From an uncultured Pelagibacteraceae bacterium (GTDB lineage: Bacteria; Pseudomonadota; Alphaproteobacteria; Pelagibacterales; Pelagibacteraceae), in the NCBI GenBank assembly GCA_902595465.1, contig CACJQE010000001.1, positions 1 to 64,000 of the forward strand: DNA of 64,000 bases, given 5' to 3'. This document shows, in pieces, positions 632 to 17,515 of the stretch. The position numbers and the translations under genes are program-made. The notes under the pieces are model-generated. The model was not told where the DNA came from, did no database searches, and saw only the letters and a list, made by a program, of their open reading frames with translations. Positions within the stretch are counted from its first letter, which is position 1, and every line of letters begins with the position of its first letter.

Positions 632-650
632 AATAATAATTTTAATAAAT

Positions 651-668
651 CTTTAACATAACTGTCAT
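651..668 (+). promoter_or_regulatory. Possible Pho box (one perfect, one degenerate half-site)
   Basis: A perfect CTGTCAT half-site lies at 662-668. A degenerate CTTTAAC lies 11 bp upstream at 651-657, matching the 7+4 spacing of PhoB sites. It precedes the small membrane protein and the arsenate genes. Against it, the site is only about 21 bp from the ATG at 690, and a normal PhoB-dependent start would fall near the Shine-Dalgarno sequence. Confidence 0.3.
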
Positions 669-2626: not shown

Positions 2627-4138
2627 TTAATTATTTGAATAAATTACTCTTGGTTCTAAAAATAATTCTCTCGCCAGAGCTTTAAATCTTTTTGTGGCTT
2701 GTTTAGAAATTATTTCTTGATGTTGTGTTGGAATTTTTAAAAATACAGAGTTGCCTCTTTTATACAATTTAAATTCCTCTAAAAAGATAGTTGAAATAGA
2801 TGTTAGTGAGTGAGCAAATCTTAAGGCTGCACCAACTTGTTTGCTAGAAAAAATTTCATTATTATTTAAAAAAGTCAAATATTCTATTTTTGGATTGTAT
2901 TTAATACTGCAGTACCTCCAATAACATGAAAGAGCTATTTGAATTCTTTCTTTATGTGAAAGTCTCAATAAAGGGGTATTTAATGTTTCTTGAAAAACTA
3001 ATTCTGCCTTTTGAAAAGCACCTAGTCCCCAATCCATATGACTTAAAACACAAGCTAAGTTAAGTAATTTTTCATTAAAATGTTCATTACCATCAAATAC
3101 AGGTTTGATAAATTCATAATACTTTTTGTAAGTTAATCCCAAATCACCTCTTTTCTTAGAAATATATTCTAATGATTTTTCAAAAACCTGAGAGTTATCA
3201 ATATTTTTAAAGTAATCTTTCGTCAAAGATCCCTCCCTAATACCGCTTATAGAACAAATTATGTTTTTTGGATTTGTGACTTTCATGATCTCATCTAAAA
3301 TAATAGAGCTATATGGTAGATAAGGTGTTCTAGATTTAGATATATATTCAACTGTTTTTAGTTTTGCTTTATTAAACGATGCTATTTTTTCTACAAATGA
3401 TGATATAGTTTCATAATTTACTGAATACTGATGAATTATATGGACAGGATGTTTATTTTGAAACAGATGAAGTTTAAATAAAGCTCTCCATGTTCCTCCA
3501 ACTAAATACAAATTTTGAAATTTTTTTTTAGATAACCATTTCTCTTCTCTCAAAAGTTGTTTTATATATTTAGAAAGGTTTCTCTTTTTTACAATTGGAT
3601 TATTAAGTAGTCTTAAAACACCTAAAGGAAAAGATGTTTTATTAGTAATCAAACCATTTTCAACTCTAGCCAATTCTAAACTTCCTCCACCAAGATCAGC
3701 AACTAACCCATCTACATTATCAAATCCAATTTTAACACCTTCAGCTGAACAAATTGCTTCTTCGTCACCACTTAAGATTTCTATTTTTTTTTTAAAAAGG
3801 TTTTCTACGTATTCAACAAAGGGTTTTGAATCTGTTGCTTCTCTTAAAACAGCAGTTGCTATTATTTTTAAATTAACAATTTTGGAAACATTTAAAATTT
3901 CTGAAAATCTCTTCAATACTTTTTGGGCATAATCCACACCAGATTTATGAAGTTTTCTTGACTTATCTAAATTTTTACCAAGTTCACAAACGGCTTTTTC
4001 ATTGAAAAAAGGCACACGAGATGAGTTAAAATCTTCATAGATTAACATCCTGATAGAATTGGAACCTATATCAATTACTGCTAATTTAGCAGGTTTTAAT
4101 TTCAGATTTTGATTATTTTTTAAAACTTTAATTTCCAC
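2627..4138 (-). CDS. ppx: Exopolyphosphatase / Ppx-GppA family phosphatase
   Basis: Ppx releases phosphate from polyphosphate ends or hydrolyses pppGpp. The N-terminal ASKHA domain shows the phosphate-1 motif (AVIDIGSNSIRM, residues 20-31) and the phosphate-2 loop ADLGGGSLEL (about 142-151). A second ASKHA half and an alpha-helical HD-like C-terminal domain follow (LSHMDWGLG, then LSHKERIQIAL). The length of 503 residues matches bacterial Ppx. Its start overlaps the ppk stop by 11 bp, so polyphosphate synthesis and breakdown are translationally linked. PPX and GppA activities cannot be separated from sequence alone, but the ppk partner favours Ppx. Confidence 0.93.
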   Translation of the reverse strand: MEIKVLKNNQNLKLKPAKLAVIDIGSNSIRMLIYEDFNSSRVPFFNEKAVCELGKNLDKSRKLHKSGVDYAQKVLKRFSEILNVSKIVNLKIIATAVLREATDSKPFVEYVENLFKKKIEILSGDEEAICSAEGVKIGFDNVDGLVADLGGGSLELARVENGLITNKTSFPLGVLRLLNNPIVKKRNLSKYIKQLLREEKWLSKKKFQNLYLVGGTWRALFKLHLFQNKHPVHIIHQYSVNYETISSFVEKIASFNKAKLKTVEYISKSRTPYLPYSSIILDEIMKVTNPKNIICSISGIREGSLTKDYFKNIDNSQVFEKSLEYISKKRGDLGLTYKKYYEFIKPVFDGNEHFNEKLLNLACVLSHMDWGLGAFQKAELVFQETLNTPLLRLSHKERIQIALSCYWRYCSIKYNPKIEYLTFLNNNEIFSSKQVGAALRFAHSLTSISTIFLEEFKLYKRGNSVFLKIPTQHQEIISKQATKRFKALARELFLEPRVIYSNN

Positions 4139-6278
4139 TTTTAATTAATCTTAAATTTAATTTTTTTGGTTTCATTTTTAATTTAGCTTTACCTCTTCCA
4201 GATAAACTAGGATTATTCATAAAATAATCATGGGCTGAAAAAGAATCATTTTCACTATATTTAATTTTTTTATAATTTCCACTAGCATCAAGTTCCCAAC
4301 TTTGGTTTTTATCTAAATAATTAGCTAACATAATTTGATCAAGAACTTGTTCGTGGACTGTTTGGTTTTCAATTGGAACTAGAAGTTCTACTCTTCGATT
4401 TAAATTTCTTGGCATTAAATCTGCTGATGAAATAAAAACTTTTGCATCTCTACTAGGCATTGTTTTTCCATTTGCAAAACAATAAATTCTTGAGTGTTCC
4501 AAAAATCTTCCAATCATGCTTTTAACTATTATATTTTCAGATTTATCTTTAACTCCAGGTCTTAAACAACAAACACCTCTTACAAATAAAAATATCTTTA
4601 CTCCAGCATTTGAAGCTTCGTAAAATTTATCAATTATCGCTGGATCTACTAAGGAATTCATTTTGGCCCATATTTCACCTTTTTTACCTTTTTTGACATT
4701 TGTAATCTCGTTAGCAATACATTTGTTCAAGGTTTCCCTAAGATTAATTGGTGATATAGATATTTTACTAAGATTTCGTGGTTTTGAATAACCAGTTACA
4801 TAATTAAAAAATTTTTCCACATCAGTTGCTAATTTTTTATCAGAACTAAATAAAGATAAGTCAGTATAAATTTTTGCATTAACTGGGTGATAATTGCCAG
4901 TTCCCAGATGTATATAAGTTTGAATTTTTCCCTGCTCTTTTCTTAATATTAAAGATGATTTTGCATGTGTTTTATATTTTGCAAAACCATAAACTATTTG
5001 AATTCCTGCCTTTTCTAAACTTCTTGAAAGTTGAATGTTTGCTTCTTCATCAAATCTTGCTTTGATCTCTATTAAAGCGGTTACTGTCTTTCCATTTTCA
5101 GCTGCTGTTATTAAGGCTTTAACAATTGGAGAATCTAGCGTTGTTCTGTATAGAGTTTGTTTAATTGCTATAACTTTTTTATCATATGCAGCTTGATTTA
5201 AAAACTCAACGACAGCATCAAATGTTTCAAAAGGGTGATGAACTATTAAATCTTTTTTTTTTATAGTATCAAAAAAATTATTATTAAACTCCTTTAATCT
5301 CTCAACCTCCCTGGGATTAAAATTTTTAAATCTTAATTTAGAATTTTTAATTTTACAAACTTGGTCTATATCTTGAATTCCAACAATGCCTTCAATTTCA
5401 TAGATGTATTCAGATTTTACGTTTAACTTATTGGTTATAAACTTAATTAAGTCATTATTACTATTTTTTAAAATTTCTAAACGTACTATGTCACCTGTTC
5501 TTCTTCTTTTTAAAGCCAATTCAAAAGATCTTACTAAATCTTCGGCCTCCTCTTGAATTTCTACATCACTATCTCTTATAACTCTAAATAACATTTTTTT
5601 ATCTAAATCATGATCAGGAAATATTTCAGAGGCAAAAAAACTTATAACATCATCTATAATTAAAAATTTTTTAAAACTTTTATTTCCATCTATTTCAATA
5701 AATCTTGATAAAGCTTTTGGAATTACTATTATTGTATTTAAAGTCCTTTTTTTATTTTTCTTATTTAATCTCATAACTAATGCTCTTCCTTGATTTGCAA
5801 TAAATGGAAAGGGATGAGCTGGGTCTATTGCTGATGGGGTTAGCAGAGGGTAAATTTCTTCATTAAAAATTTTAAATAATCTTTTTTGTTCAGGTTTACT
5901 TAAATTTTCAGGTTTAACTATACTTATATTTGCTTTTTTTAATTGAAGAATTAAATCTCTATATATTTTATTTTGTTTATTAAGAAGATTATTTGTTTCC
6001 AAAATAACTTCACTCATTTGTTCATCAGGAGTAAGACCATCAGAACTAAGTGAATCTACATCTTGTTTGATTTGACTATATAAACCTGCAACACGAACCA
6101 TGAAAAATTCATCTAAATTTGATCCAGCTATAGATAAAAATTTAATTCTTTCATAAAGAGGATTTTCAAAATTTTGGGCCTCAAGAAGAACTCTGTCGTT
6201 GAATTTTAGCCAAGACAGCTCTCTATTTATGTATTTAGATTTTAGTGTTTCTTTATCTTGTTTTTTTAATGCAGTCAT
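4128..6278 (-). CDS. ppk: Polyphosphate kinase 1
   Basis: PPK1 reversibly transfers the gamma phosphate of ATP to a growing polyphosphate chain through a phosphohistidine. The 716-residue protein has the N-terminal helical domain (YINRELSWLKFNDRVL), head domain, and two phospholipase-D-like C-terminal domains. Those carry KTHAKSSLILR with the autophosphorylated histidine, HLGTGNYHP, and a second region FLEHSRIYCF. SSADLMPRNLNRRVE is the usual late motif. It diverges from sixA with only 13 bp between start codons and is followed by overlapping ppx. Its place beside pst/pho genes suits phosphate storage. Confidence 0.96.
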   Translation of the reverse strand: MTALKKQDKETLKSKYINRELSWLKFNDRVLLEAQNFENPLYERIKFLSIAGSNLDEFFMVRVAGLYSQIKQDVDSLSSDGLTPDEQMSEVILETNNLLNKQNKIYRDLILQLKKANISIVKPENLSKPEQKRLFKIFNEEIYPLLTPSAIDPAHPFPFIANQGRALVMRLNKKNKKRTLNTIIVIPKALSRFIEIDGNKSFKKFLIIDDVISFFASEIFPDHDLDKKMLFRVIRDSDVEIQEEAEDLVRSFELALKRRRTGDIVRLEILKNSNNDLIKFITNKLNVKSEYIYEIEGIVGIQDIDQVCKIKNSKLRFKNFNPREVERLKEFNNNFFDTIKKKDLIVHHPFETFDAVVEFLNQAAYDKKVIAIKQTLYRTTLDSPIVKALITAAENGKTVTALIEIKARFDEEANIQLSRSLEKAGIQIVYGFAKYKTHAKSSLILRKEQGKIQTYIHLGTGNYHPVNAKIYTDLSLFSSDKKLATDVEKFFNYVTGYSKPRNLSKISISPINLRETLNKCIANEITNVKKGKKGEIWAKMNSLVDPAIIDKFYEASNAGVKIFLFVRGVCCLRPGVKDKSENIIVKSMIGRFLEHSRIYCFANGKTMPSRDAKVFISSADLMPRNLNRRVELLVPIENQTVHEQVLDQIMLANYLDKNQSWELDASGNYKKIKYSENDSFSAHDYFMNNPSLSGRGKAKLKMKPKKLNLRLIKSGN

Positions 6279-6291
6279 ATATTTAAAATTT

Positions 6292-6816
6292 ATGCTTAAA
6301 TTATACGTTATGCGTCATGCAAAATCTAGCTGGGACCACCCAAATCTTGATGATCATGAAAGACCATTAAGTAAGCGTGGCGAGAAAAATGCAAAAAAGA
6401 TTTGTGAATTTTTTGTTAAAAAAAATTATAAGTTTGATTACATATTACTTTCATCATCAAAAAGAACAAAGAAAACCCTAAAAATTTTATTAAAAAAAAT
6501 AGATAAACCAAAAAAAATTATTTCTTCAAAAAAATTATACTTATCAAGTGAAGATAAAATTATAGATATAATAAAAAAAATACCAAAAAAATATAAATCA
6601 GTGCTTTTAATTAACCATGAACCTGCTGTTAGAAATCTAATACGATCACTGACAAAAAATCACAACAACAACCATTTTAAATTATTAAACTACAAATTTC
6701 CGACATCGGCATTTGCAAAAATTTATTTTGATTTTAATGAATGGAATAAATTAGATGGAAATGGTTTAATTAAAGAATTTACTAGACCTAAAGACCTTCA
6801 AGATTCTAAAGAATAA
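6292..6816 (+). CDS. sixA: SixA-type histidine phosphatase
   Basis: This is a histidine-phosphatase-superfamily protein with the RHG-like motif MRHAKSSWD near the N-terminus, ERPLSKRGEKNAK, SSSKRTKKTL, and a second catalytic histidine in LLINHEPAVRNL. The longer frame from 6199 overlaps ppk antisense, so I place the start at ATG 6292 (174 residues). Members remove phosphate from phosphohistidines of signalling proteins; E. coli SixA acts on an ArcB/PTS phosphohistidine. Its 3' end overlaps the convergent phoB by 19 bp. A target among the neighbouring phosphohistidine proteins (PhoR, PPK) is speculation. Confidence 0.85.
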   Translation: MLKLYVMRHAKSSWDHPNLDDHERPLSKRGEKNAKKICEFFVKKNYKFDYILLSSSKRTKKTLKILLKKIDKPKKIISSKKLYLSSEDKIIDIIKKIPKKYKSVLLINHEPAVRNLIRSLTKNHNNNHFKLLNYKFPTSAFAKIYFDFNEWNKLDGNGLIKEFTRPKDLQDSKE

Positions 6817-7481
6817 CCTGCTGATCTTACAGTTCTAATTAAAGGCTTAGTATTATCTATATTAATAGCCTGTCTTAATCTTCTGATATGCACATCGACA
6901 GTTCTAGTTTCAACGTAAATATTTTCTCCCCAAACATTGTTTAAGAGTTGTTCTCTTGAATATACCCTTTTTGGATTTTTGATAAAAAAATCTAATAATT
7001 TAAATTCTGTAGGTCCTAGAGATATTTCAATGTTATTTCTATAAACTCTTTTTGTTATTCTATCTATTTTTAGATCTGTAAACTCAACAACATCAACGGT
7101 GGATTGTGGTTTTGATCTTCTGAGTAATGATTTAATTCTTGCATTAAGTTCTTTTTGACTAAATGGTTTTGTTACATAATCATCTGCACCTGTATCAAAA
7201 GCTCTTAATTTGTCCTCCTCCTCGCCTTTTGCTGTTAACATTATTACTGGTATGTCATTATGCTTTTTGTCTTTTTTTAAATTTTTACATATTTCAACGC
7301 CTGACAAATCGGGCAACATCCAATCCATTAATATTAAGTCAGGAAGCTTATCTTTAATTTGTTTAAGCGCATCTTCACCATTTTCACAGAAACTTACTTT
7401 GTAACCCTCTTTTTCAAGGTTATACTTTAGTAGAGTTATTATAGCAGCCTCGTCCTCAGCTATAAAAATATGAGCCGACAT
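6798..7481 (-). CDS. phoB: Phosphate-regulon response regulator PhoB
   Basis: PhoB activates phosphate-starvation genes at Pho boxes. The receiver domain has acidic residues near the start (AEDEA), phospho-acceptor Asp53 in LILMDWMLPD, T in LTAKGEE and the conserved Lys in TKPFSQKEL. The C-terminal OmpR-type winged helix carries LGPTEFKLLDF, RVYSREQLL and TVDVHIRRLRQAI. The length of 227 residues is typical. It is the last gene of the pst operon, 3 bp after phoU, while its kinase phoR lies upstream of pstS. Confidence 0.95.
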   Translation of the reverse strand: MSAHIFIAEDEAAIITLLKYNLEKEGYKVSFCENGEDALKQIKDKLPDLILMDWMLPDLSGVEICKNLKKDKKHNDIPVIMLTAKGEEEDKLRAFDTGADDYVTKPFSQKELNARIKSLLRRSKPQSTVDVVEFTDLKIDRITKRVYRNNIEISLGPTEFKLLDFFIKNPKRVYSREQLLNNVWGENIYVETRTVDVHIRRLRQAINIDNTKPLIRTVRSAGYSLES

Positions 7482-7484
7482 ATT

Positions 7485-8192
7485 TTACTTTTCTCCAGTA
7501 ACAATAGGTTCTGTGCCTTTTGGTCGATCGCCCTCTAGATATTCTCCCTTAACTAAATAATATACTTGCTCAGCAATGTTGGTTGTATGATCACCTATTC
7601 TCTCTATATTTTTAGTTACAAATAATAAGTGGGTTCCATCACTTAAGTTATTTTCGTTATCTTTTAAATATCTAATCACTTCTTGCATGCATAAATTTGT
7701 TAAATCATCAATTTGTTCGTCGCTTTCCCATACATTAATTGCCATACTCGAAGATCTTTCTAAATATGCATCTAATATTGATTTCAATTGTTTTTGAACA
7801 TCCGAAGATACTCTTATAATAGCATCTACTAAATTTTTTGGTAAATTTTCATTTAACAAAAGAGTTCTTTTAGAAATATTTTTTGCTAAATCACCTATTC
7901 TCTCAAGGTCAGAAGATATCTTTAAAGCAGTGACTGTTTCTCTAAGATCTATGGCCATAGGTTGTCTTAAAGCAATTAAATTTACTACTTGCTGTTCAAT
8001 TAAAGTCTCAAATTTATCAATTTTTTCATCATCTTTAATTACTGCCTCAGCATTATCACTATTTCTTGTAGTAATTGCTTGAATAGCTTTACCCAAAGCT
8101 TCTTCACAAAATCCACCCATTTTAATTATATTGCTATTTAAATTTTTAAGTTCTTCTTCGTAAGACTTTACTGTATGTGGTGCTTCGGTCAT
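7485..8192 (-). CDS. phoU: Phosphate transport regulator PhoU
   Basis: PhoU links the Pst transporter to PhoR and dampens phosphate signalling. The 235-residue all-helical protein contains the duplicated three-helix PhoU domain with metal-binding signatures such as SDLERIGDLAKNI (about 90-102) and KNIERIGDHTTNIAE (about 190-204). The start codon overlaps the pstB stop by a base, the standard pstSCAB-phoU arrangement. Confidence 0.96.
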   Translation of the reverse strand: MTEAPHTVKSYEEELKNLNSNIIKMGGFCEEALGKAIQAITTRNSDNAEAVIKDDEKIDKFETLIEQQVVNLIALRQPMAIDLRETVTALKISSDLERIGDLAKNISKRTLLLNENLPKNLVDAIIRVSSDVQKQLKSILDAYLERSSSMAINVWESDEQIDDLTNLCMQEVIRYLKDNENNLSDGTHLLFVTKNIERIGDHTTNIAEQVYYLVKGEYLEGDRPKGTEPIVTGEK

Positions 8193-8947
8193 TATCCAAA
8201 CCTCCCTGTGATATAATCCTGAGTTTTTTTGTTTTCTGGATTCTTAAATATTTTATCAGTAGAACCATGTTCTATCAATTCTCCAAGGTGAAAAAAACCT
8301 GTATTTTGAGAAACTCTTGCAGCTTGTGCCATTGAGTGAGTGACTATTATAATAGTATGGTCTTTTTTTAACTCATCAATTAGTTCTTCTATTTGAGCTG
8401 TAGCAATAGGATCTAAAGCAGAACAAGGCTCGTCCATTAGAATAACTTCAGGTTTAACTGAAATTGCCCTTGCTATACATAATCTTTGTTGTTGACCACC
8501 AGACAAACCAGTACCTGGTTCATGAAGTCTATCTTTCACCTCTTCCCATAATGCTGCCTTTTTTAAGCTAGTTTCAACTATTTCATCCATTTCATTCTTT
8601 GATTGAGCCATACCATGAATTGTTGGACCATAAGAAATATTTTCATAAATAGTTTTAGGAAAAGGATTTGGTTTTTGAAAAACCATACCAATTTTTTCTC
8701 TTAATCTAACAACATCACAACTTTTATCATTGATATCAAAATCATTAATTATAATCTGCCCTTTTACTCTACATATATCAATAACGTCATTCATTCGGTT
8801 TAGACATCTTAAAAAAGTAGATTTACCACAACCTGAAGGCCCAATCAGTGCTGTAACTTGATTTTCTTCAATATCTAAATTTATATTGAATAGAGCTTGT
8901 TTTTTTCCATAGAAAACATCTACATTTTTTGAATTTATCTTTATCAT
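8192..8947 (-). CDS. pstB: Phosphate ABC transporter ATP-binding protein PstB
   Basis: This is the ATPase of the high-affinity phosphate importer. It shows Walker A (GPSGCGKST), Q-loop ([10 protein letters not shown], the typical PstB wording), signature LSGGQQQRL, Walker B ([13 protein letters not shown]) and H-loop ([10 protein letters not shown]). I choose ATG 8947 because GGAG lies a suitable distance upstream (GGAGTTAAG before ATG); the alternative ATG 8968 would overlap pstA by 20 bp. The resulting 251 residues match the family. Confidence 0.95.
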
Positions 8948-8948
8948 C

Positions 8949-10217
8949 TTAACTCCATTTTTTTTCAAATTTATGTCTAATTATTTGTGCAAATAAGTTC
9001 ATTATAATTAAAAATCCTAATAGAACCATAATACAGGCAGAAACTTTCTCGACAAAACCTCTTTCAGCGCTCTCTGCCCAAATATAAATTTGCACTGGCA
9101 AACTTGCAGCTGGATCTAAAGGAGATCCTGGTATTGTATTTACAAAAGCCACCATGCCAATCAATATCAAAGGTGCGGTTTCGCCTAAAGCTTGGGCCAA
9201 ACCAATTATTGTACCGGATAAAGTCCCTGGCATAGATAACGGAACTGTATGATGCATTGTAGTTTGCATTTTACTAGCACCCATTGCAAGTGCTGCCTCT
9301 CTTATACTTGGAGGAACTGCTTTTAAAGATGCTCTACAAGCAATAATAATTGTTGGTAAAGTCATCAACGACAAAGTTATTCCACCGACTAGAGGTGTTG
9401 ACCTAGGTAATTGAAATACAGCAAGTAAAATACCCAGTCCTAAAAGACCAAAAACAATTGAAGGTACTGCTGCTAAATTATTTATATTTACCTCAATAAA
9501 ATCAGTAAATCTGTTTTTAGGAGCAAATTCCTCTAAATAAATAGCTGCTAGAACTGCTACAGGAAAAGCTATCATTAAACAAACAAGTATAGAAAATATT
9601 GATCCCATAAATGAACTTGCTATACCAGCTAATTCAGCTTCTCTTGAATCAGGATATGTAAAAAAACTTAAATTGAATTTACTTTCAACTTTTCCTAGTT
9701 CTACAAGTTGATCAAAAATCTTTAATTGATAATCCGTAACTCTTCTTTGATCTTCAGGTAAATCTCTTGGATAATTGCCTTTAAATACTTGATCTAAATC
9801 ATCTGAGGCAGTTAAATAAACATCTTTAGTTTTTCCAATTAATGAAGGGTCGTTTAAAAGTTCCCTTTTAATCTCTCTTTCGAAAAAGTAAGAGACCATT
9901 CTCTTCAGCTCATTTTCTTGATCCTCATTAGCATTTGGATCCAAATCAGCCATTGATTTTAATGCTATATCGTAATAATCAGCATCTTTTAAATCCTCTT
10001 TAGAAGGATTTTGCTCTAACATCATTAATTCAGCATCAAAAGTAACTGGAACAATAAGCCAAGTTTTTTGAAAGGCTGAATAGCCTGTCGAAAAAATTTT
10101 AAAAATAAAGATTGTTAAAAATAAAAGTGCCATAAAAATTGCACTTTGACCGTATAATCGAAATCTCTTTTCAGCTTTATATCTTTTATTTAATAATTGT
10201 TCTTTATTTTTATTCAT
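8949..10217 (-). CDS. pstA: Phosphate ABC transporter permease PstA
   Basis: Inner-membrane permease subunit. The 422 residues comprise an N-terminal anchor (about 27-47), a roughly 140-residue polar extracytoplasmic region, and a C-terminal five- to six-helix permease core with the EAA-type loop ([20 protein letters not shown]). The long N-terminal domain is common in alphaproteobacterial PstA and absent from the shorter E. coli form. The C-terminal [13 protein letters not shown] motif is diagnostic. It overlaps pstC by 8 bp. Confidence 0.94.
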
Positions 10218-11595
10218 ATTTTTCTCTATATTTTTTAACTACTCTTAAGGCCACAATATTCAAACAGAGCGTTACTAAAAATAATGACATACCTAAAGCA
10301 AATGCAGCTTGCGTTTTTGGGTCGCCAAAAGCTTGATCTCCAATTAATATTACAACAATTTGCGCTGTAATTGTTGAAGTAGATTCTAATGGATTTAAAG
10401 TTAAATTAGCAGCTAAACCAGAGGCCATAACAACTATCATTGTTTCTCCAATTGCTCTTGAAACACCAAGCAAAATAGATCCAACTATACCAGGCAATGC
10501 TGCAGGAAAAATAACTTTTTTTATTGTTTCTGATTTGGTTGCTCCCATGGCATAACTTCCATCTCTTAAACTTTGAGGTACACTTGTAATCACATCGTCA
10601 CTTAAACTTGAAATGAATGGTATAATCATAATGCCCATTACTCCGCCTGCCGCTAAAGCGCTTTCAGCTGAAACGTCTAAACCCATGCTATTACCTATTT
10701 CCTTTAAAAAAGGTCCAACTGTTAGAGCAGCAAAAAATCCATAAACAACTGTTGGTATACCAGCTAAAATTTCAATTAAAGGTTTTGCGTATTGTCTAAC
10801 TTTAACTGATGCATACTCAGCCAAATAAATTCCACTCATTAGTCCAATAGGAATAGCAACACACATAGCTATGAAAGCAATAAAAAAAGTACCAGCAAAA
10901 ATAGGGACTGCTCCAAAAGTATCGGAGTACATTGTCGGATCTAAAGCCTCTGAAGAATCTCTAACAAAAGCTTTTGCAGGATACCAATGAGTTCCAAAGA
11001 CAAAATCAAATAATGGAATTACTTTAAAAAAATCTATAGTTTGAAATATAAGTGAAAATACTATTCCAACAGTAGTTAATATTGCAGCTAAAGAAGCTGT
11101 AAATAAAACTGCTTTCAAAAATTTTTCAACTGGTTCTCTTGTTCTAGAATTAGATGAAATTTTTTTATAAGCGTAAGCAACAGAGGCAATAATTATAGAT
11201 AATACTATAACAGCTTTTGAACTTTGAGCTATTGATCGAAGACTTAAATATTTTTCAGCTGAAGCCTCAATAAAAGGTGTAATTTCTCCGGTAAATTGTC
11301 CTCGAGACAATGCTTTTGTTTTTTCGTAAATTAAATTTAATTCATCATCAAGATAACCTTGATTTGAATAATCACTTAAGATTAATAGTTTTACAATTGT
11401 GGGCTCAAAAATTGCCCATAAAGAAAAAATTATAAAAGCTGGTATTGCACACCAAATTGCAAGATAATAACCATAAAATTGTGGTAATGCGGTTAATCTT
11501 TTATTTGTAGATTGAATTGTATATGCTTTTTTACGTCCAAAATAATAACTTGTGAAACCCAGAAGAACAATAAATATAAACAATATTAAGTTCAA
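10210..11595 (-). CDS. pstC: Phosphate ABC transporter permease PstC
   Basis: Partner permease to PstA. The 461-residue protein has N-terminal membrane segments (1-15, 45-65), a polar segment, another pair of helices (about 125-145 and 160-185), then the binding-protein-dependent permease core with QSLRDGSYAMGATKSETI as the coupling loop and AIGETMIVVM near the end. The extended N-terminus is an alphaproteobacterial feature. A terminator-like hairpin lies between pstS and this gene, so it is probably expressed below pstS by partial read-through. Confidence 0.94.
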   Translation of the reverse strand: MNLILFIFIVLLGFTSYYFGRKKAYTIQSTNKRLTALPQFYGYYLAIWCAIPAFIIFSLWAIFEPTIVKLLILSDYSNQGYLDDELNLIYEKTKALSRGQFTGEITPFIEASAEKYLSLRSIAQSSKAVIVLSIIIASVAYAYKKISSNSRTREPVEKFLKAVLFTASLAAILTTVGIVFSLIFQTIDFFKVIPLFDFVFGTHWYPAKAFVRDSSEALDPTMYSDTFGAVPIFAGTFFIAFIAMCVAIPIGLMSGIYLAEYASVKVRQYAKPLIEILAGIPTVVYGFFAALTVGPFLKEIGNSMGLDVSAESALAAGGVMGIMIIPFISSLSDDVITSVPQSLRDGSYAMGATKSETIKKVIFPAALPGIVGSILLGVSRAIGETMIVVMASGLAANLTLNPLESTSTITAQIVVILIGDQAFGDPKTQAAFALGMSLFLVTLCLNIVALRVVKKYREKYE

Positions 11596-11638
11596 AGAAT
11601 CTCCTTTATTGAGGACTTTACTCTTATTTCAAAAAAAA

Positions 11639-11656
11639 GGGGTCTAAAAAGACCCC
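11639..11656 (-). terminator. Intrinsic terminator/attenuator between pstS and pstC
   Basis: On the minus strand a GGGGTC stem, 6-nt loop and GACCCC arm are followed by a run of eight T. The flanking A and T runs lengthen the stem. Its place immediately after pstS fits partial termination, which would give more binding protein than permease. Confidence 0.8.
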
Positions 11657-11686
11657 TTTTTTAATTATTTGTTAACAGAGTAATAA

Positions 11687-12718
11687 TTAATTACCCATAG
11701 CAACTAGCTTCGTAGCATTAGTTCTAGTTGTTTTATACAACTTAGAGTCTAATGGAACTAAACCAATATCTGCTAAGTAACCACCTTTTCCAATAGCTTT
11801 CTTAGTTGTGAATTCTTTCACAAACTCATGTAATCCTGGGATTACTCCAACGTGAGCTTTTTTCACATAGAAAAATAATGGTCTTGCAACTGCATAACTG
11901 TAGTCTTGAATACTCGCTAGAGAGGGTTGTCCACCATCTATGCTAGCAGCTTGTAATTTATCTTTAGCAGCTAAGAAATAGCTGAAACCAAAGAAACCAA
12001 ACATATCTTTATCTTGAGTTAACTTTTGGATGATTAAACTATCGTTTTCTCCTACTTCAATAGCAGCTCCATCTTCTCTGTAAAGTTTTTGTGGTTTTTT
12101 GTATTTTTTATTTCCAGCTTCAAAACCTGCTTTATAAAGAGCTTTAGCTTCTTTAGTCATACCTTTTTTCATTACTAAAGAATTCCAAGCATCTCTAGTT
12201 CCTGATGTTCCTGGTGGGATCATTACTGAAATTTTTTGTTTTGGTAAGCTAGGGTCAATTTGGTCCCAGGTTTTATAAATATTTGGAACTAACTTACCAT
12301 CAACTACTGTATGAGCAGCTAATGCTAAATATAATTGTTCTTTAGTAAAGTTTACTGGTTTTGCATCTTTGCTGTAAGCTAATGTAATACCATCGTTACC
12401 AATTACGATCTCAACAATATCATTTACACCATTTTTCTTACATAGGGCTTTCTCTTTGTCTTTCATAGCTCTTGATGCATTTGTAATATCTGGATGTTGC
12501 TCACCAACACCAGCACAGAATAGTTTAGCTCCTCCACCAGTACCAGTCGACTCGATTACAGGAGTTTTGAATCCTGAACCACCAAATCTTTCAGCAACAA
12601 CAGTCGCGTAAGGGAATACTGTAGACGAACCAACTATCTTAATTTGATCTCTTGCTTGAGCAACAGTTGCTATTGATAGAGCAACTAAAGAAGCAATCAC
12701 TATAGTTAGTTTTTTCAT
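11687..12718 (-). CDS. pstS: Periplasmic phosphate-binding protein PstS
   Basis: PstS captures phosphate in the periplasm for PstCAB. It has a Sec signal peptide (residues 1-22, cut after AQA), then KIVGSSTVFPYA and ESTGTGGGAKLFC, which form the phosphate pocket, and PPGTSGTRDAW (about 160-170). The length of 343 residues is normal. A Pho box lies 71-88 bp upstream and a terminator-like hairpin follows the gene. Codon use is noticeably less A/T-biased than in neighbouring genes, as expected for one of the most abundant proteins of the cell. Confidence 0.97.
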   Translation of the reverse strand: MKKLTIVIASLVALSIATVAQARDQIKIVGSSTVFPYATVVAERFGGSGFKTPVIESTGTGGGAKLFCAGVGEQHPDITNASRAMKDKEKALCKKNGVNDIVEIVIGNDGITLAYSKDAKPVNFTKEQLYLALAAHTVVDGKLVPNIYKTWDQIDPSLPKQKISVMIPPGTSGTRDAWNSLVMKKGMTKEAKALYKAGFEAGNKKYKKPQKLYREDGAAIEVGENDSLIIQKLTQDKDMFGFFGFSYFLAAKDKLQAASIDGGQPSLASIQDYSYAVARPLFFYVKKAHVGVIPGLHEFVKEFTTKKAIGKGGYLADIGLVPLDSKLYKTTRTNATKLVAMGN

Positions 12719-12788
12719 TATCTTTAATCCTTTCGTTATTTATTAATTAAAAGATGTCTGACTCGTATAAATTTATTGAATCTTTAAT

Positions 12789-12806
12789 ATTACAGAATTA
12801 TTACAG
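12789..12806 (-). promoter_or_regulatory. Pho box upstream of pstS
   Basis: On the minus strand two identical CTGTAAT repeats are spaced 11 bp apart (start to start), the exact 7+4 architecture of the PhoB site, each matching 6 of 7 consensus bases. The distance to the pstS ATG (71 bp) leaves room for a -10 box and a leader. Confidence 0.88.
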
Positions 12807-12827
12807 TTTTGTTAAAAACCTAACTTT

Positions 12828-13436
12828 TTAGTTGTATTTCATTGAGACAATAATCTCACTATTTTCAGTTTCTAGACCACCTTTGCATGAAACTGGGTTT
12901 ACGTTATCCTTAAAAGCAAGATCTGGGGTTGGTCTTAAGACAACTTCCAGTTTTACCAAATTAACTAATTCCTCAAGAATACTTTGGTCATAACGCCATT
13001 TTGGCCAACTAGTAGGAGTAGAAAAAATAGATGTTAAATAGCTTGTCGCCATAGTAAACCTATAATTACTCATATTTTCATTTCTCAGTAAATGATCTCT
13101 AACAGAATTAAATATGTTTCGACATCTCAATGAATCTGACATGTAGTTCTCTTTTTTTAAATTTTCATTTACTGGAATTGAAACAATTAAATCTACTGTA
13201 TTTCTCCAATAGGAACTGAGAACATCTATATATATATCTTCATACGGTACATCTTTATGTTTTTTTATTTCAGGATATGAACTTTTTAAGTCTTCCTGTA
13301 ATCTAAAGATACCAATATCAAAAACAGTTAATTGCTGGTTTCTTAAAATTGTAGAAATATCTGATGCATTACTTTTAGTAATGATCGACATTAAAAAAAA
13401 AATAATAATTAAAATACTATGTAATATCTTAATCAT
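12828..13436 (-). CDS. Secreted protein of unknown function between phoR and pstS
   Basis: I do not recognise this 202-residue protein. It starts with a clear signal peptide (hydrophobic residues 5-18, likely cleavage after SNA at 24). The mature part is mixed alpha/beta with two cysteines (105 and 184) that could form a disulphide, and a tryptophan-rich patch (SWPKWRYDQS, about 143-152). It lies 109 bp upstream of pstS and 94 bp downstream of phoR, same strand. The setting suggests a periplasmic role in phosphate acclimation, but that is context only. Confidence 0.75.
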   Translation of the reverse strand: MIKILHSILIIIFFLMSIITKSNASDISTILRNQQLTVFDIGIFRLQEDLKSSYPEIKKHKDVPYEDIYIDVLSSYWRNTVDLIVSIPVNENLKKENYMSDSLRCRNIFNSVRDHLLRNENMSNYRFTMATSYLTSIFSTPTSWPKWRYDQSILEELVNLVKLEVVLRPTPDLAFKDNVNPVSCKGGLETENSEIIVSMKYN

Positions 13437-13467
13437 AAATTAATTTTAAATAAACTAAGATACAAAT

Positions 13468-13490
13468 CAACAAAAGATTTGTTAAATCTT
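13468..13490 (-). terminator. Weak AT-rich hairpin downstream of phoR
   Basis: AAGATTT-GTT-AAATCTT forms a 7-bp stem with a short outer helix (CAAC with GTTG), read on the minus strand after phoR and followed by a T-rich stretch (TTTTGTTGATTT). It may end the plcP-agt-phoR transcript. The stem is AT-rich, so this is tentative. Confidence 0.35.
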
Positions 13491-13530
13491 GGTTGAATAA
13501 GAGTTAATTTTAAACAATTTTTTAAATTAA

Positions 13531-14679
13531 TTATTTTGTTGGAAGATATATCTTAATTTCAGTACCTTCATTAACTTTACTGAGAATCTCATAGTCACCT
13601 CTGTGTTGAGATATAATATGTTTCATTATAGCTAAACCTAAACCTGTACCACCAACCTTTTTACTTTTTTCTGTATCTACTCTAAAAAATCTTTCAGTTA
13701 TTCTTGGAATTAGCTGGTGAGGTATTCCAACACCTTCATCTTTAATGATAATGGCAATATTTTTATCAATTAATTTACCTTCACTGATTTGACTTTTTAC
13801 GTATATATTTTTTCCATCTTGTGAATATTTAATTGAATTATCAATTAAATTTGAAAATACAGTTAACAATTTATCATTATCACCAAAAACTAAGGTTGGT
13901 TCCATAAGTTCAATATGTAAATTGATTTTCTTTTTTTTAAGAATTAATTCAAAGTTACTTTTAATATTTGTAAAAAGATCATTTAAGCTCACAATTTTAT
14001 TAGGCTTGATATGTTCTTCCAATTCTATTCTACTTAAAATCAATAAATCATTAATTAGGTTTTCCATTCTTAATACTTGATCAGACATGATAGACATAAA
14101 TTTTTTTTGCGCCTCTTGGTCTTTTGAAGCTGGTCCAAGAATAGTTTCTAACGAACCTTTAATCGAAACTAAAGGTGTTCTTAATTCATGACTCACATTT
14201 GCAACAAAATCAGTTTTTAGTTTTTGTGCTTTTGTTATTTCTGTAAAATCTTTTAGAAACAATACGACAGAGTTTATTTCTGGAAACAAATGGGTCGGAC
14301 CAGGAATAACATAGATTTTGTAAAGTTGATAAGATGGTAAATTTATTTCTACATTGACATTTTTTGTAGTTTGATCTTTGATAGCCTCTTCAATCGTTTC
14401 TAATAATTTTGTATCTCTAATTACACTTGAAATATTTTTATCAATTAGGTTTTCTCCAAAACGTTGTTTTGCACTTTTGTTTAGATATTTGATTAAATTA
14501 TATTTATCTAAAGCAAAGAATTGATCTTCTAATTCTTCAATAATTACTCTTTTTCCTAAATCATCCTTATTAGTCTTGTTTACAACTGGTGCTGTGTTTT
14601 CTGGCTTAATATTTTTTTTAAATAAAAAATATAATAAAATGATTATTATAACTATAAGTATCAACTCTGCCCAAAACAT
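13531..14679 (-). CDS. phoR: Phosphate-regulon sensor histidine kinase PhoR
   Basis: PhoR phosphorylates PhoB when phosphate is scarce. It has a single N-terminal membrane anchor (residues 3-19), a PAS-like region (about 50-150), HisKA with the phosphoacceptor in NVSHELRTPL, and HATPase_c with the N box NLIDNSIKYS, G1 DEGVGIP and G2 GGTGLGLAI. The 382 residues are compact compared with E. coli PhoR. It lies 34 bp after the glycosyltransferase and upstream of pst, apart from phoB at the other end of the cluster. Confidence 0.92.
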   Translation of the reverse strand: MFWAELILIVIIIILLYFLFKKNIKPENTAPVVNKTNKDDLGKRVIIEELEDQFFALDKYNLIKYLNKSAKQRFGENLIDKNISSVIRDTKLLETIEEAIKDQTTKNVNVEINLPSYQLYKIYVIPGPTHLFPEINSVVLFLKDFTEITKAQKLKTDFVANVSHELRTPLVSIKGSLETILGPASKDQEAQKKFMSIMSDQVLRMENLINDLLILSRIELEEHIKPNKIVSLNDLFTNIKSNFELILKKKKINLHIELMEPTLVFGDNDKLLTVFSNLIDNSIKYSQDGKNIYVKSQISEGKLIDKNIAIIIKDEGVGIPHQLIPRITERFFRVDTEKSKKVGGTGLGLAIMKHIISQHRGDYEILSKVNEGTEIKIYLPTK

Positions 14680-14713
14680 GGATATGTTTTAACAAATGTA
14701 ATGTATATTGTCT

Positions 14714-15721
14714 TTAATTATTAGGTGAAATATTTTCAAAAAATATTTTTGCCGTTTCCTCCCAAGAATATTTTTTTGCAAAATCAAGACAATCTTGACG
14801 ACTTACCTTCAAAGCTTTTAAAGCAGAGGTTTTCAAATCATTATCTAAAGTATCAATATTAGTACCCCCTAATATATCTTTAGGTCCCGGTACAGGGTAA
14901 GCTGCGACTGGTGTGCCACAATTTAAAGACTCTAAGACAACTATACCAAACGTATCTGTTTTACTTGGAAATACAAAAACATCAGATGATGCAAAATGAG
15001 AAGCTAATTCTCCATTTGTTTTCTCACCTAAAAAAATGTCTTTTGGAAACTTTTTTTTTAAATTGTTTAAATCAGGACCTTTACCAATTATAATTTTAGT
15101 ACCTTCAAGATCTAAATCTAAAAATGCTTTGATATTTTTTTCAACAGCAACTCTTCCAACATATATCCATATAGGTCTTTTATAAGGTAAGTCTTTCTTA
15201 ATGGGGTTTTTAAATGCACCATGATTACCTCCTCTGGTCCATGTAACCATTTTATTGTTATCAATACCTAAAGAAATTAATTCTTCACGCATAGATTCTG
15301 TTGTTACTAAAATTCTTTCAGCTTTATTATGAAAATTGCATAAAAATTTTTCTGACCATTTAGCTGGAATGATAGGCATATAAAGTTTCATGTATTTATC
15401 AAATCTTGTGTGAAAACTTGTGGTAAATTTTAAGCCATTTTTAATGCAATGTCTTCGTGCCATAAACCCTAAGGGTCCTTCTGTTGCAATATGTATTGCA
15501 TCAGGTTTAATTGAATTAATTAAGTTACTTACACGGGGCCAAACATTTAAGGACAATCTAATTTCATTATATTTTGGCATGGGCACGGTAAGAAATTGTT
15601 GAGGAGTAATATATTCAATAGTTTGACCTTGTGATTTAAGAATTTCACCAGTTTCGTGGAGAGTTCTTACAACACCATTAACTTGAGGGTAATAAGCATC
15701 GGTAACAATTAATATTTTCAT
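14714..15721 (-). CDS. agt: GT4-family glycosyltransferase, probable glycolipid synthase (Agt)
   Basis: A GT-B glycosyltransferase of family 4 with the N-terminal DAYYPQVNGVVRTL motif shared by lipid glycosyltransferases and mannosyltransferases, EGPLGF, a donor-site IYVGRVAVEKN, and the E-x7-E region FPSKTDTFGIVVLESLNCGTP (split motif, about 253-273). It is 3 bp downstream of the PlcP phosphoesterase. In marine bacteria the plcP-agt pair degrades phospholipid to diacylglycerol and glycosylates it under phosphate starvation. The sugar (glucose or glucuronate) cannot be told from sequence. Confidence 0.85.
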   Translation of the reverse strand: MKILIVTDAYYPQVNGVVRTLHETGEILKSQGQTIEYITPQQFLTVPMPKYNEIRLSLNVWPRVSNLINSIKPDAIHIATEGPLGFMARRHCIKNGLKFTTSFHTRFDKYMKLYMPIIPAKWSEKFLCNFHNKAERILVTTESMREELISLGIDNNKMVTWTRGGNHGAFKNPIKKDLPYKRPIWIYVGRVAVEKNIKAFLDLDLEGTKIIIGKGPDLNNLKKKFPKDIFLGEKTNGELASHFASSDVFVFPSKTDTFGIVVLESLNCGTPVAAYPVPGPKDILGGTNIDTLDNDLKTSALKALKVSRQDCLDFAKKYSWEETAKIFFENISPNN

Positions 15722-15724
15722 TCT

Positions 15725-16531
15725 TTAAGATGCTTTTTTGAATGAACCGATCCTGTTATTATCAATATTTTCTGAAATATATTCGTTTCTTTTTTTATCC
15801 CAATAAATTATCTCAAAAGTTCCATCATATTTTTCTGCCAAGGCTGTACATGACTCAACCCAATCGCCACAATTTAAATAATTAACACCATCAAGATTTA
15901 AATTTTCAGCATGATGTATGTGTCCACAAATTATTCCATCAAATTTTTTCCTTTTTGCATATGAAGAAAGTGTGTTTTCATATTCACCTATAAATTTTAC
16001 AGCATTTTTTACCTTATATTTTAAAAATTTTGCCAATGACCAATAGTCTTTACCTCTCAATTTTCTAAAAAAATTTATAATAACATTAATTTTAAGTAAT
16101 AATTCATAGGCAATAGCTCCTAATTTAGAAAGCCATTTAGCATATTTCATTACTCCGTCCCAAGCATCACCATGAACAACTAAATATTTTTTTCCTAACT
16201 GCGTTTCATGAATAACTCTATTTACTATTTTAATATCACCTAAATGCATTGGAATAAATTTTCTAAATACCTCATCATGATTTCCAATTATGTAAAATAC
16301 TTTTGTCCCGTGCCTGGCTTTTCTCAATATTTTTTGTATGACATCATTATGCTCTTGAGGCCAATAGAAACTCTTTTGCATTGCCCAAACATCGATTATA
16401 TCTCCAACTAAATAAAGGTTCTCGGATCTTGAATTCTTAAAAAATTCTAAAAGCTTGTTAGCTTGACAACCTTTGGTGCCAAGATGCACATCAGATATAA
16501 ATATACTCTTATATTTTAATAACGGAGGCAT
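15725..16531 (-). CDS. plcP: Calcineurin-like metallophosphoesterase, PlcP-type phospholipase C
   Basis: All five metal-site motifs are present: DVHLG (Asp14, His16), GDIID (Asp44), GNHDE (Asn84, His85), VHGD (His120) and GHIHH (His204, His206). The family is often labelled UDP-2,3-diacylglucosamine hydrolase (LpxH), but LpxI in this window already fills that role. The tight pairing with a glycosyltransferase, phoR and pst points to PlcP, which removes the head group of phospholipids to make diacylglycerol. SD-like GGTTT precedes the ATG. It is divergent from the DAG-kinase-family gene. Confidence 0.85.
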   Translation of the reverse strand: MPPLLKYKSIFISDVHLGTKGCQANKLLEFFKNSRSENLYLVGDIIDVWAMQKSFYWPQEHNDVIQKILRKARHGTKVFYIIGNHDEVFRKFIPMHLGDIKIVNRVIHETQLGKKYLVVHGDAWDGVMKYAKWLSKLGAIAYELLLKINVIINFFRKLRGKDYWSLAKFLKYKVKNAVKFIGEYENTLSSYAKRKKFDGIICGHIHHAENLNLDGVNYLNCGDWVESCTALAEKYDGTFEIIYWDKKRNEYISENIDNNRIGSFKKAS

Positions 16532-16545
16532 TAAAAAAACCTATT

Positions 16546-16563
16546 TTGTAACACAACTGTAAC
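16546..16563 (+). promoter_or_regulatory. Pho box in the plcP/DAG-kinase divergent promoter
   Basis: TTGTAAC at 16546-16552 and CTGTAAC at 16557-16563 are direct repeats 11 bp apart, the PhoB spacing. Orientation points to the rightward gene at 16631. The 99-bp intergenic region is shared with leftward plcP, so PhoB bound here could influence both genes. Confidence 0.75.
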
Positions 16564-16630
16564 TCGAATCATTTAATTCTTATGTCATTGAAATGTTAAA
16601 GATTTATTAAAAATTAGTTACGAAAAAATT

Positions 16631-17515
16631 ATGCATTATTGTTTGATTTATAACCTTAATTCTTCAACAGGGAAAAAAATAAAATTTGTAAATAAGATTT
16701 ATGAAAAATTAAAAATTAACAACTCTGTAGATTATTTCAAAACCAAATCTGAAAAAGAGGCGAAAGAAATATTTTTGGAATTTAAAAATAAAAATTATGA
16801 TAGATTGATAGTTGCTGGTGGAGATGGATCAGTATCATTTGCTATCAATGAATTGATAAAAAATGACTTTGATTTTAATGATAAATTTGCAATTGGGTAC
16901 ATACCGGCTGGAACAGCCAATTTACTTCAAGCAGAGTTATCGATAAATAAAAAAGTAGACGATATTTGTAATATTTTAACATCAAATAATTATAAACAAT
17001 CTAATCTTATAAAAATAAATAAAAATTATTTTTTTTTAATGGCTGGTATTGGTTGGGATGCTAAAATTGTTCACTCTATTGATACACGTATAAAAAAAAT
17101 ACTTGGTAAGATAATATTTGGTTTAAAAGGGTTTCAGCATTTTTTATTTATGAAAAATAATAAACTTGATGTTTTCTTTGATGGTCAAAAATATCAAGCT
17201 GATTGGGTATTAAGTTCTAATACCAAATATTATGCTGGTCATCATAAGATAAATAAGTCAAACATTTTTGATGATAGATTAATAACTTATGTTTTTAAAG
17301 ATTTAAGTAGGCTAAAATTAATGTATTATATTATTTTGATAATTATTTATGGAGATTTATCAAGAAACAAATCTGTTATAACCACCTATTCAAAAAGTAT
17401 CCAAATTAATTGCAATAATTTTGAAATTCCCGTTCAGGTTGATGGAGATAATTTTGGATGTCACAATAAGATTGATATTGAATTTTCACAAAAAAAAGTA
17501 AATTTTTTACTATAA
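16631..17515 (+). CDS. Diacylglycerol kinase / lipid kinase family protein (YegS/DagK-like)
   Basis: The catalytic domain shows VAGGDGSVSFAINEL (about 57-71), the nucleotide-binding glycine loop of the DAGK family, followed by PAGTANLL (about 95-102) and AGIGWDAKIV (about 137-146). At 294 residues it is a normal YegS/DgkB-type lipid kinase. It would phosphorylate diacylglycerol or a related lipid. Because it is divergent from plcP behind a Pho box, it probably controls the diacylglycerol released by PlcP or acts on another remodelled lipid. The substrate is an inference. Confidence 0.85.
   Translation: MHYCLIYNLNSSTGKKIKFVNKIYEKLKINNSVDYFKTKSEKEAKEIFLEFKNKNYDRLIVAGGDGSVSFAINELIKNDFDFNDKFAIGYIPAGTANLLQAELSINKKVDDICNILTSNNYKQSNLIKINKNYFFLMAGIGWDAKIVHSIDTRIKKILGKIIFGLKGFQHFLFMKNNKLDVFFDGQKYQADWVLSSNTKYYAGHHKINKSNIFDDRLITYVFKDLSRLKLMYYIILIIIYGDLSRNKSVITTYSKSIQINCNNFEIPVQVDGDNFGCHNKIDIEFSQKKVNFLL

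Follow-up and report, generated by a model that had tools for sequence, protein, structure and literature searches.

The window analysed here is the whole 64,000-nucleotide stretch of DNA shown above, from an uncultured Pelagibacteraceae bacterium, and the system in question is an island of phosphate-related genes in its left part. Open reading frame (ORF) calls combined with Pfam and NCBIfam profile matches recovered every gene named in an earlier note on this DNA, with the coordinates, order and strands given there. The minus strand carries plcP, a phospholipase-type metallophosphoesterase gene (15725-16531; PF00149), agt, encoding a glycolipid glycosyltransferase of the GT4 family (14714-15721), the sensor kinase gene phoR (13531-14679; HisKA and HATPase_c domains, TIGR02966 with 281 bits, below its cut-off of 334) and unkX, encoding a probable secreted protein (12828-13436). 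These are followed by pstS (11687-12718; PF12849, TIGR02136 with 135 bits, below 206.6), pstC (10210-11595; DUF3708 and BPD_transp_1), pstA (8949-10217; DUF3333 and BPD_transp_1), pstB (8192-8968; PF00005 and position), phoU (7485-8192; TIGR02135 with 216.5 bits, over the cut-off of 130.25) and phoB (6798-7481; TIGR02154 with 328.5 bits, over 296.2). PstS also matched the solved phosphate-binding chain 9jwy_A with 621 bits using phmmer. The ordering plcP-agt-phoR-unkX-pstSCAB-phoU-phoB is thus found on one strand, the successive gaps between plcP and pstS measuring 3, 34, 94 and 109 bases. The same strand holds ppk, a polyphosphate kinase gene with four PPK1 domains and the sole PF02503 match in the window's genome (4128-6278), and the exopolyphosphatase gene ppx (2627-4138; PF02541 with 137 bits, TIGR03706 with 259.5 bits, below 307). 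A sixA-like phosphohistidine phosphatase gene (6286-6816; TIGR00249 with 64.6 bits, below 74.5) and a diacylglycerol (DAG)-kinase-family lipid kinase gene, head to head with plcP (16631-17515; PF00781 with 80.6 bits), are on the plus strand.

The boundary of 2627-17515 set by the earlier note seems too tight, and the functional unit larger. At the left edge (640-2476) lies a plus-strand run missed by that note, with a Pho-box-like site in front. It is composed of a DUF6552 small membrane protein gene (690-911; PF20189 with 39.7 bits, its start inferred from a 21-base distance), arsC, read as a thioredoxin-type arsenate reductase of the low-molecular-weight protein tyrosine phosphatase (LMW-PTP) fold (911-1342; TIGR02691 as best NCBIfam match), a MIP-family aquaglyceroporin channel gene whose product we take to be AqpS-like (1332-1991; PF00230 with 97.9 bits) and a NUDIX hydrolase gene (1982-2476; PF00293 with 27.7 bits).

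The comparison of the island covered 61 genomes, among them that of the window. Of these, 37 come from the same genus or family (f1) and 24 from another family of the order (f2), and many are incomplete. Forty stretches were fetched and the window's proteins mapped on them; the best 80 of 583 named contigs bearing plcP were then treated likewise. The same genes recur together in relatives, so that the island is not a chance cluster. In the genus, the place after valS-ilvD-manC is taken by either of two versions: a full one, as in the window, or a minimal one reduced to phoR-pstSCAB-phoU-phoB. The Pst proteins of the minimal version share about 60-81% identity with those of the window (62-64% for pstA). 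In f2, the full version is ordered plcP-agt, sixA, ppk-ppx-phoR, usually another gene, then pstSCAB-phoU-phoB-arsC-channel. In three f2 loci (L095, L096 and L099), the island is reduced to phoR-pst-phoB, accompanied by arsC in one of them. The slot between phoR and pstS was examined in one f2 locus (L087, 7933-8655) and encodes a TMEM164-family membrane protein.

A very similar gene set has been described in HIMB59, a lineage of another bacterial order, and the origin of the window was considered in this light. Separation of the 5S rRNA gene from the 16S and 23S genes by a large island is a mark of true SAR11, according to the consulted parts of two papers (PMC7318151, PMC3815206). In 4 of the 5 f1 genomes searched (G012, G029, G158 and G267), a distance of 44-62 kb separates the 5S gene from the closest other rRNA gene found; the 23S gene was found only in G158 and G267, and for G012 and G029 the distance is that from 5S to 16S. 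The fifth was the window's own genome, where no 5S rRNA was found. By comparison, the f2 genome G040 has its 16S, 23S and 5S genes in one contiguous group. The f1 arrangement, with 5S set apart, marks the genome as true SAR11 (Pelagibacterales), in agreement with the earlier note, and led us to reject a HIMB59 origin. The alkaline phosphatase PhoX, detected in 0 of the 61 genomes, does not decide this question, as its absence would also suit some HIMB59 versions of the island.

Taken together, these observations make it probable that the window carries the flexible phosphate island known from SAR11 (Pelagibacteraceae) in a gene-rich form, with a Pho regulon gathered at one chromosomal place. 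In the scheme that we propose, PhoR would sense low phosphate and phosphorylate PhoB. The Pho boxes bound by PhoB would be those before pstS and those in the divergent promoter shared by plcP and the DAG-kinase gene, with a further possible target ahead of the arsC run. Phosphate would enter through PstSCAB-PhoU, and Ppk and Ppx would store it as polyphosphate and release it.

Candidate PhoB sites were searched for with the Pho-box consensus, both as a pattern and through a position weight matrix (PWM) trained on 12 distinct pst boxes of relatives, the window being excluded. Five sites scoring at least 16 bits were observed in the 64 kb, for 0.1 expected per random window, and the best score among 20 random windows was 17.5. 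The top two sites exceed this value: one faces the DAG-kinase gene (16546-16563, plus strand; 21.4, the best of the window) and the other belongs to a triple repeat before pstS on the minus strand (12789-12817), which matches the consensus exactly and scores 20.1 at 12789-12806 and 16.7 at 12800-12817. Tandem repeats before the DUF6552-arsC-channel run (640-668, plus strand) contain the third best site (651-668; 17.0), weaker repeats face plcP (16595-16623, minus strand; 13.5), and a site of 16.7 inside the channel gene (1557-1574) is probably due to chance. The pstS site is present with at most 2 consensus mismatches within 250 bases in 20 of 21 relatives, the exception (L088) having 3, and the repeat could be aligned in six genomes. 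Among 27 loci with both genes, 21 spacers between the DAG-kinase gene and plcP were scored; 13 reached at least 15 toward the DAG kinase and 13 did so toward plcP. The sites predict a pstS unit and plcP/DAG-kinase units driven separately by PhoB. Downstream of pstS, the pstS-pstC spacer (11596-11686, minus strand) contains a strong hairpin followed by a U-run. A comparable hairpin was predicted in 9 of 9 loci folded, the stems differing among relatives, and this arrangement would fit an excess of PstS over PstCAB. In the minimal version of the complete genome G012, a further Pho-box-like pair was seen by eye before pstC, past the hairpin. Degenerate 11-base repeats resembling Pho-box units also lie on the minus strand at 2531-2581, between the convergent nudix and ppx genes.

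The position of phoR directly downstream of agt led the earlier note to regard the sensor kinase as co-transcribed with the lipid genes rather than with phoB. We counted neighbours in 53 loci with phoR and 53 with pstS, accepting matches with E<=1e-6 over a quarter or more of the query length; at least two contigs were counted twice in these numbers (L068 is L118, and L100 is L131). Upstream of phoR, agt was the close neighbour in 24 loci; in 4 others agt was also the next gene but lay across a gap of more than 700 bases, in fact 1.6-1.9 kb. In 10 loci ppx took this place and in 6 it was manC/eamA, while 3 loci had a distant gene there and 6 ended at the locus edge. On the other side, pstS was preceded by unkX in 28 loci, by phoR in 12, by phoR about 875 bases away in 11, and by the edge in 2. 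As phoR stays 5' of pst while its upstream partner varies, its place beside agt does not appear as a special rewiring; the evidence indicates that phoR travels with pst and that its adjacency to agt is incidental. The alternative, that plcP-agt-phoR forms one lipid-plus-sensor operon reflecting a deliberate regulatory coupling distinct from phoB, is favoured by the 34-base gap between agt and phoR in the window, by the frequency of agt as near neighbour and by the Pho-box scores, none of the 8 loci scored having a site of at least 9 before phoR. We regard it as unlikely, given the variety of genes found upstream and the collinearity of phoR, unkX, pst and phoB in the window. Concerning expression, the earlier note expected the pst genes not to be expressed apart from the plcP-agt-phoR block. 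The strong site directly before pstS predicts that pstS is expressed independently of this block, while the missing site before phoR leaves read-through from plcP-agt plausible for phoR itself.

In the four loci with a long agt-phoR gap (L123, L124, L125 and L129), the gap holds a pair of ORFs on the opposite strand. Those of L123 and L129 were assigned by Pfam to the acyltransferase families PF01553/PF19576 and PF13444. They are probably ornithine-lipid genes, presumably olsA and olsB, inside the phosphate island. The OlsB family was not found in the window's genome (84% complete) and was present in 1 of the 61 genomes. The proposal that the cell handles all its phosphate-stress responses from this one locus was overstated: only PhoX and the OlsB family were checked in this respect, and phosphonate genes and Pit were not searched for.

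The lipid module is well supported by sequence comparisons as a PlcP/Agt system for lipid remodelling. The HTCC7211 enzyme GTcp has been characterised by mutation of 15 residues, listed in the consulted part of PMC8231724, and Agt has all 15 with identical numbering. In distant loci with a plcP homologue, agt lies directly downstream in 43 of 55 (52 had room for it). Of the same 55 loci, 50 had room for a DAG-kinase homologue on the other side of plcP and 9 show one in head-to-head orientation; among 25 nearer loci 20 do so, and 2 of the 5 others have no room. PlcP would cleave phospholipids to diacylglycerol, which Agt would turn into glycolipid, and the DAG kinase may return part of the diacylglycerol to phosphatidate. 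The HIMB59 paper names the counterparts of these two enzymes LpxH and RfaG, which would make them lipid A and lipopolysaccharide enzymes. Consistently with those names, the phosphoesterase has a weak NCBIfam relation to LpxH (48.2 and 41.5 bits, for cut-offs of 134 and 190), and at E<=0.001 it matches nothing in the PDB but three sequences of LpxH (E from 2e-5 to 2e-4). LpxC alone, found in 46 of the 61 genomes including the window's, did not exclude an LpxH role for the phosphoesterase. The presence of LpxI in the window's genome (52741-53127) and in 48 of the 61 genomes made such a role unnecessary. Moreover, plcP is found in only 21 of the 61, and the complete genome G012 encodes LpxC and LpxI with no plcP match. 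Together with the Agt residues, these observations make the LpxH/RfaG assignment very improbable. The replacement of phospholipids through PlcP and Agt, already put forward in the earlier note, is strengthened by the residue match, by the adjacency of agt and plcP and by LpxI.

A comparable choice of names concerns the arsC-channel module. Thioredoxin-type arsenate reductases rely on three catalytic or shuttle cysteines, and Cys8, Cys84 and Cys92 are present in 13 of 13 aligned rows, some of them identical. The PDB matches of ArsC are arsenate reductases in 14 cases out of 15, the top match being named only low-molecular-weight phosphatase family protein. Its TIGR02691 score of 73.6 bits falls below the curated cut-off of 174.3, so that TIGR02691 is the best family for a divergent sequence and ArsC is a reading and not a formal assignment. 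The genomic context was then considered. In every locus where both were found, arsC adjoins the channel gene. In f2, arsC directly follows phoB in 11 of the 14 loci bearing phoB, the channel gene coming next in all 10 that extend far enough; of the three others, two lack arsC and one ends at the edge. In the distant alphaproteobacterium of L161, arsC, channel, plcP and agt stand in a row. The minimal islands contain DUF6552 without detected arsC. From these data the module probably serves arsenate detoxification, the channel being the probable exit for arsenite: ArsC and the channel would remove the arsenate that enters with phosphate. In line with such a role, the consulted part of PMC6426599 describes SAR11 ArsC as commoner in low-phosphate waters and 2.3-fold up in starved HTCC7211. 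A Wzb-like protein tyrosine phosphatase and a glycerol facilitator are the names chosen for the HIMB59 counterparts; such a phosphatase would share the LMW-PTP fold (PF01451) and would suit the name of the top PDB match and the score below the cut-off. We consider this pair improbable in view of the conserved cysteines, the predominance of arsenate reductases among the PDB matches and the constant pairing of arsC with the channel gene, whether beside phoB as in f2 or beside plcP as in L129 and L161.

Exchange of the island was examined through identity at four-fold degenerate sites between the window and its relatives. With L109, 11 of the 12 island genes compared are 93-100% identical and agt 80%, for 79-84% in the flanking manC, ilvD and valS. 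With L067, for which island genes only were compared, pstS reaches 81%, pstC 78%, sixA 71% and unkX 60%, for 36-53% in the other island genes, suggesting a recent exchange of the pstS-pstC piece alone (6525-9029 in L067). L111 is intermediate, with 40-82% in the island and 37-57% in the flanks. Such silent-site patterns fit homologous replacement of the island and of its parts. Divergent alleles are found at a fixed place, and whole alleles or pieces would be swapped by homologous recombination, a process proposed for the HIMB59 phosphate island in the consulted part of PMC10734472.

Several results weigh against the interpretation of the locus as a PhoB-controlled and exchangeable phosphate island. 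Ppx, PstS, PhoR, SixA and ArsC all score under their NCBIfam cut-offs. The site facing plcP is weak in the window and scores below 12 in 6 of the 21 spacers. No Pho-box-like site facing ppk was found (29 pattern matches; 25 of 27 PWM sites), and a consensus promoter scan was no richer than shuffled sequences (100 for 102.7). The site before the arsC run was outscored by one of the 20 random windows. Twelve loci were scanned for it: among the 9 with a DUF6552 start, 3 reached at least 13, and of the 6 arsC-bearing loci only the window and the near-identical L076 did so. This limited conservation gives slightly more weight to the phosphatase alternative and slightly less to the phosphate-island interpretation. 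Finally, L122 shows no sign of exchange, with 31-62% in the island and 44-53% in the flanks.

The island was next compared with known systems. The closest is fGIp of HIMB59 (versions C, D and H; PMC10734472), which in the consulted part of that paper is located at a fixed position of the chromosome and contains pstSCAB-phoU, phoR-phoB, ppk, ppx, sixA, a phosphoesterase, a glycosyltransferase, a small phosphatase, a channel of the glycerol-facilitator type and, in some versions, a DAG kinase, its content varying by version. The window's island likewise combines a fixed place, a pst core and variable accessory genes. As differences, HIMB59 belongs to another bacterial order, four of its genes are labelled LpxH, RfaG, Wzb and GlpF, some versions carry PhoX, and the main text of the paper holds no word beginning with plcP or arsen. 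By analogy with the window, these four genes probably correspond to PlcP, Agt, ArsC and the arsenite channel. In SAR11 itself, the gMED and gWID islands share pstSCAB-phoU and PhoB-PhoR at the same position, with less than 60% identity between the two groups; they are discussed with phosphonate genes, and the consulted part of PMC7318151 makes no mention of genes for lipids, polyphosphate or arsenate in them. The 'type 2' plcP-agt cluster, for instance in Pelagibacter HTCC7211, also has agt downstream of plcP and replaces lipids on phosphate starvation (PMC4796936, PMC8231724, both consulted in part), whereas phoR and pst are not placed beside it in the part of PMC4796936 available. The SAR11 protein LMWPc_ArsC is of the same fold class and is enriched where phosphate is low, its linkage to a Pho island not being described in the portion of PMC6426599 consulted. 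In a literature search of limited depth, based partly on excerpts, we found no SAR11 paper with the whole gene set, the HIMB59 paper being the closest.

The island is thus mostly known in kind, as a well-organised example and not a new system. The present analysis adds a revised interpretation of the lipid and arsenate genes, evidence for the incidental character of the phoR-agt adjacency and the conserved protein UnkX. If this revised interpretation is true, the islands that grow as phosphate falls would carry lipid replacement and arsenate defence, not extra phosphatases, which would alter the meaning of their distribution in metagenomes.

The conserved and probably secreted UnkX also provides a named candidate for testing. 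Its signal peptide was recognised by eye, two cysteines are invariant across 13 aligned homologues, and no Pfam or NCBIfam match was obtained at E<=0.001. A first structural model was poor (predicted local distance difference test, pLDDT, of 59.4) and a second one good (84.8), with an alpha/beta fold. The second gave no Foldseek match at E<=0.001, and structural comparison yielded a best Z score of 6.6, within the range given by unrelated folds. A Pho-box-like site precedes unkX in 1 of 8 loci (9.2). Besides the 28 loci where it directly precedes pstS, unkX comes before pstS in G158, a genome of another genus whose flanking ORFs, as far as read, show no evident phoR, and it comes after phoR in L129, a locus where no pstS was found. 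The gene is thus conserved in the vicinity of pstS or phoR, and we would guess that UnkX is a partner of PstS or PhoR. A bolder proposal, which we hold as doubtful, would make the island a self-contained exchangeable Pho cassette, with arsenate detoxification hard-wired to phosphate uptake and UnkX working in the periplasm with PstS or PhoR, as their dedicated partner, to tune phosphate sensing in the phosphate-poor ocean. In a wider sampling, 6 of 289 genomes of the class encode UnkX homologues; 4 of these 6 are outside the family, with neighbours that look unrelated by eye. A single f2 locus (L103) was inspected, and its homologue is flanked by two ORFs that we take, by eye, to be AtuA-like and LivF-like.

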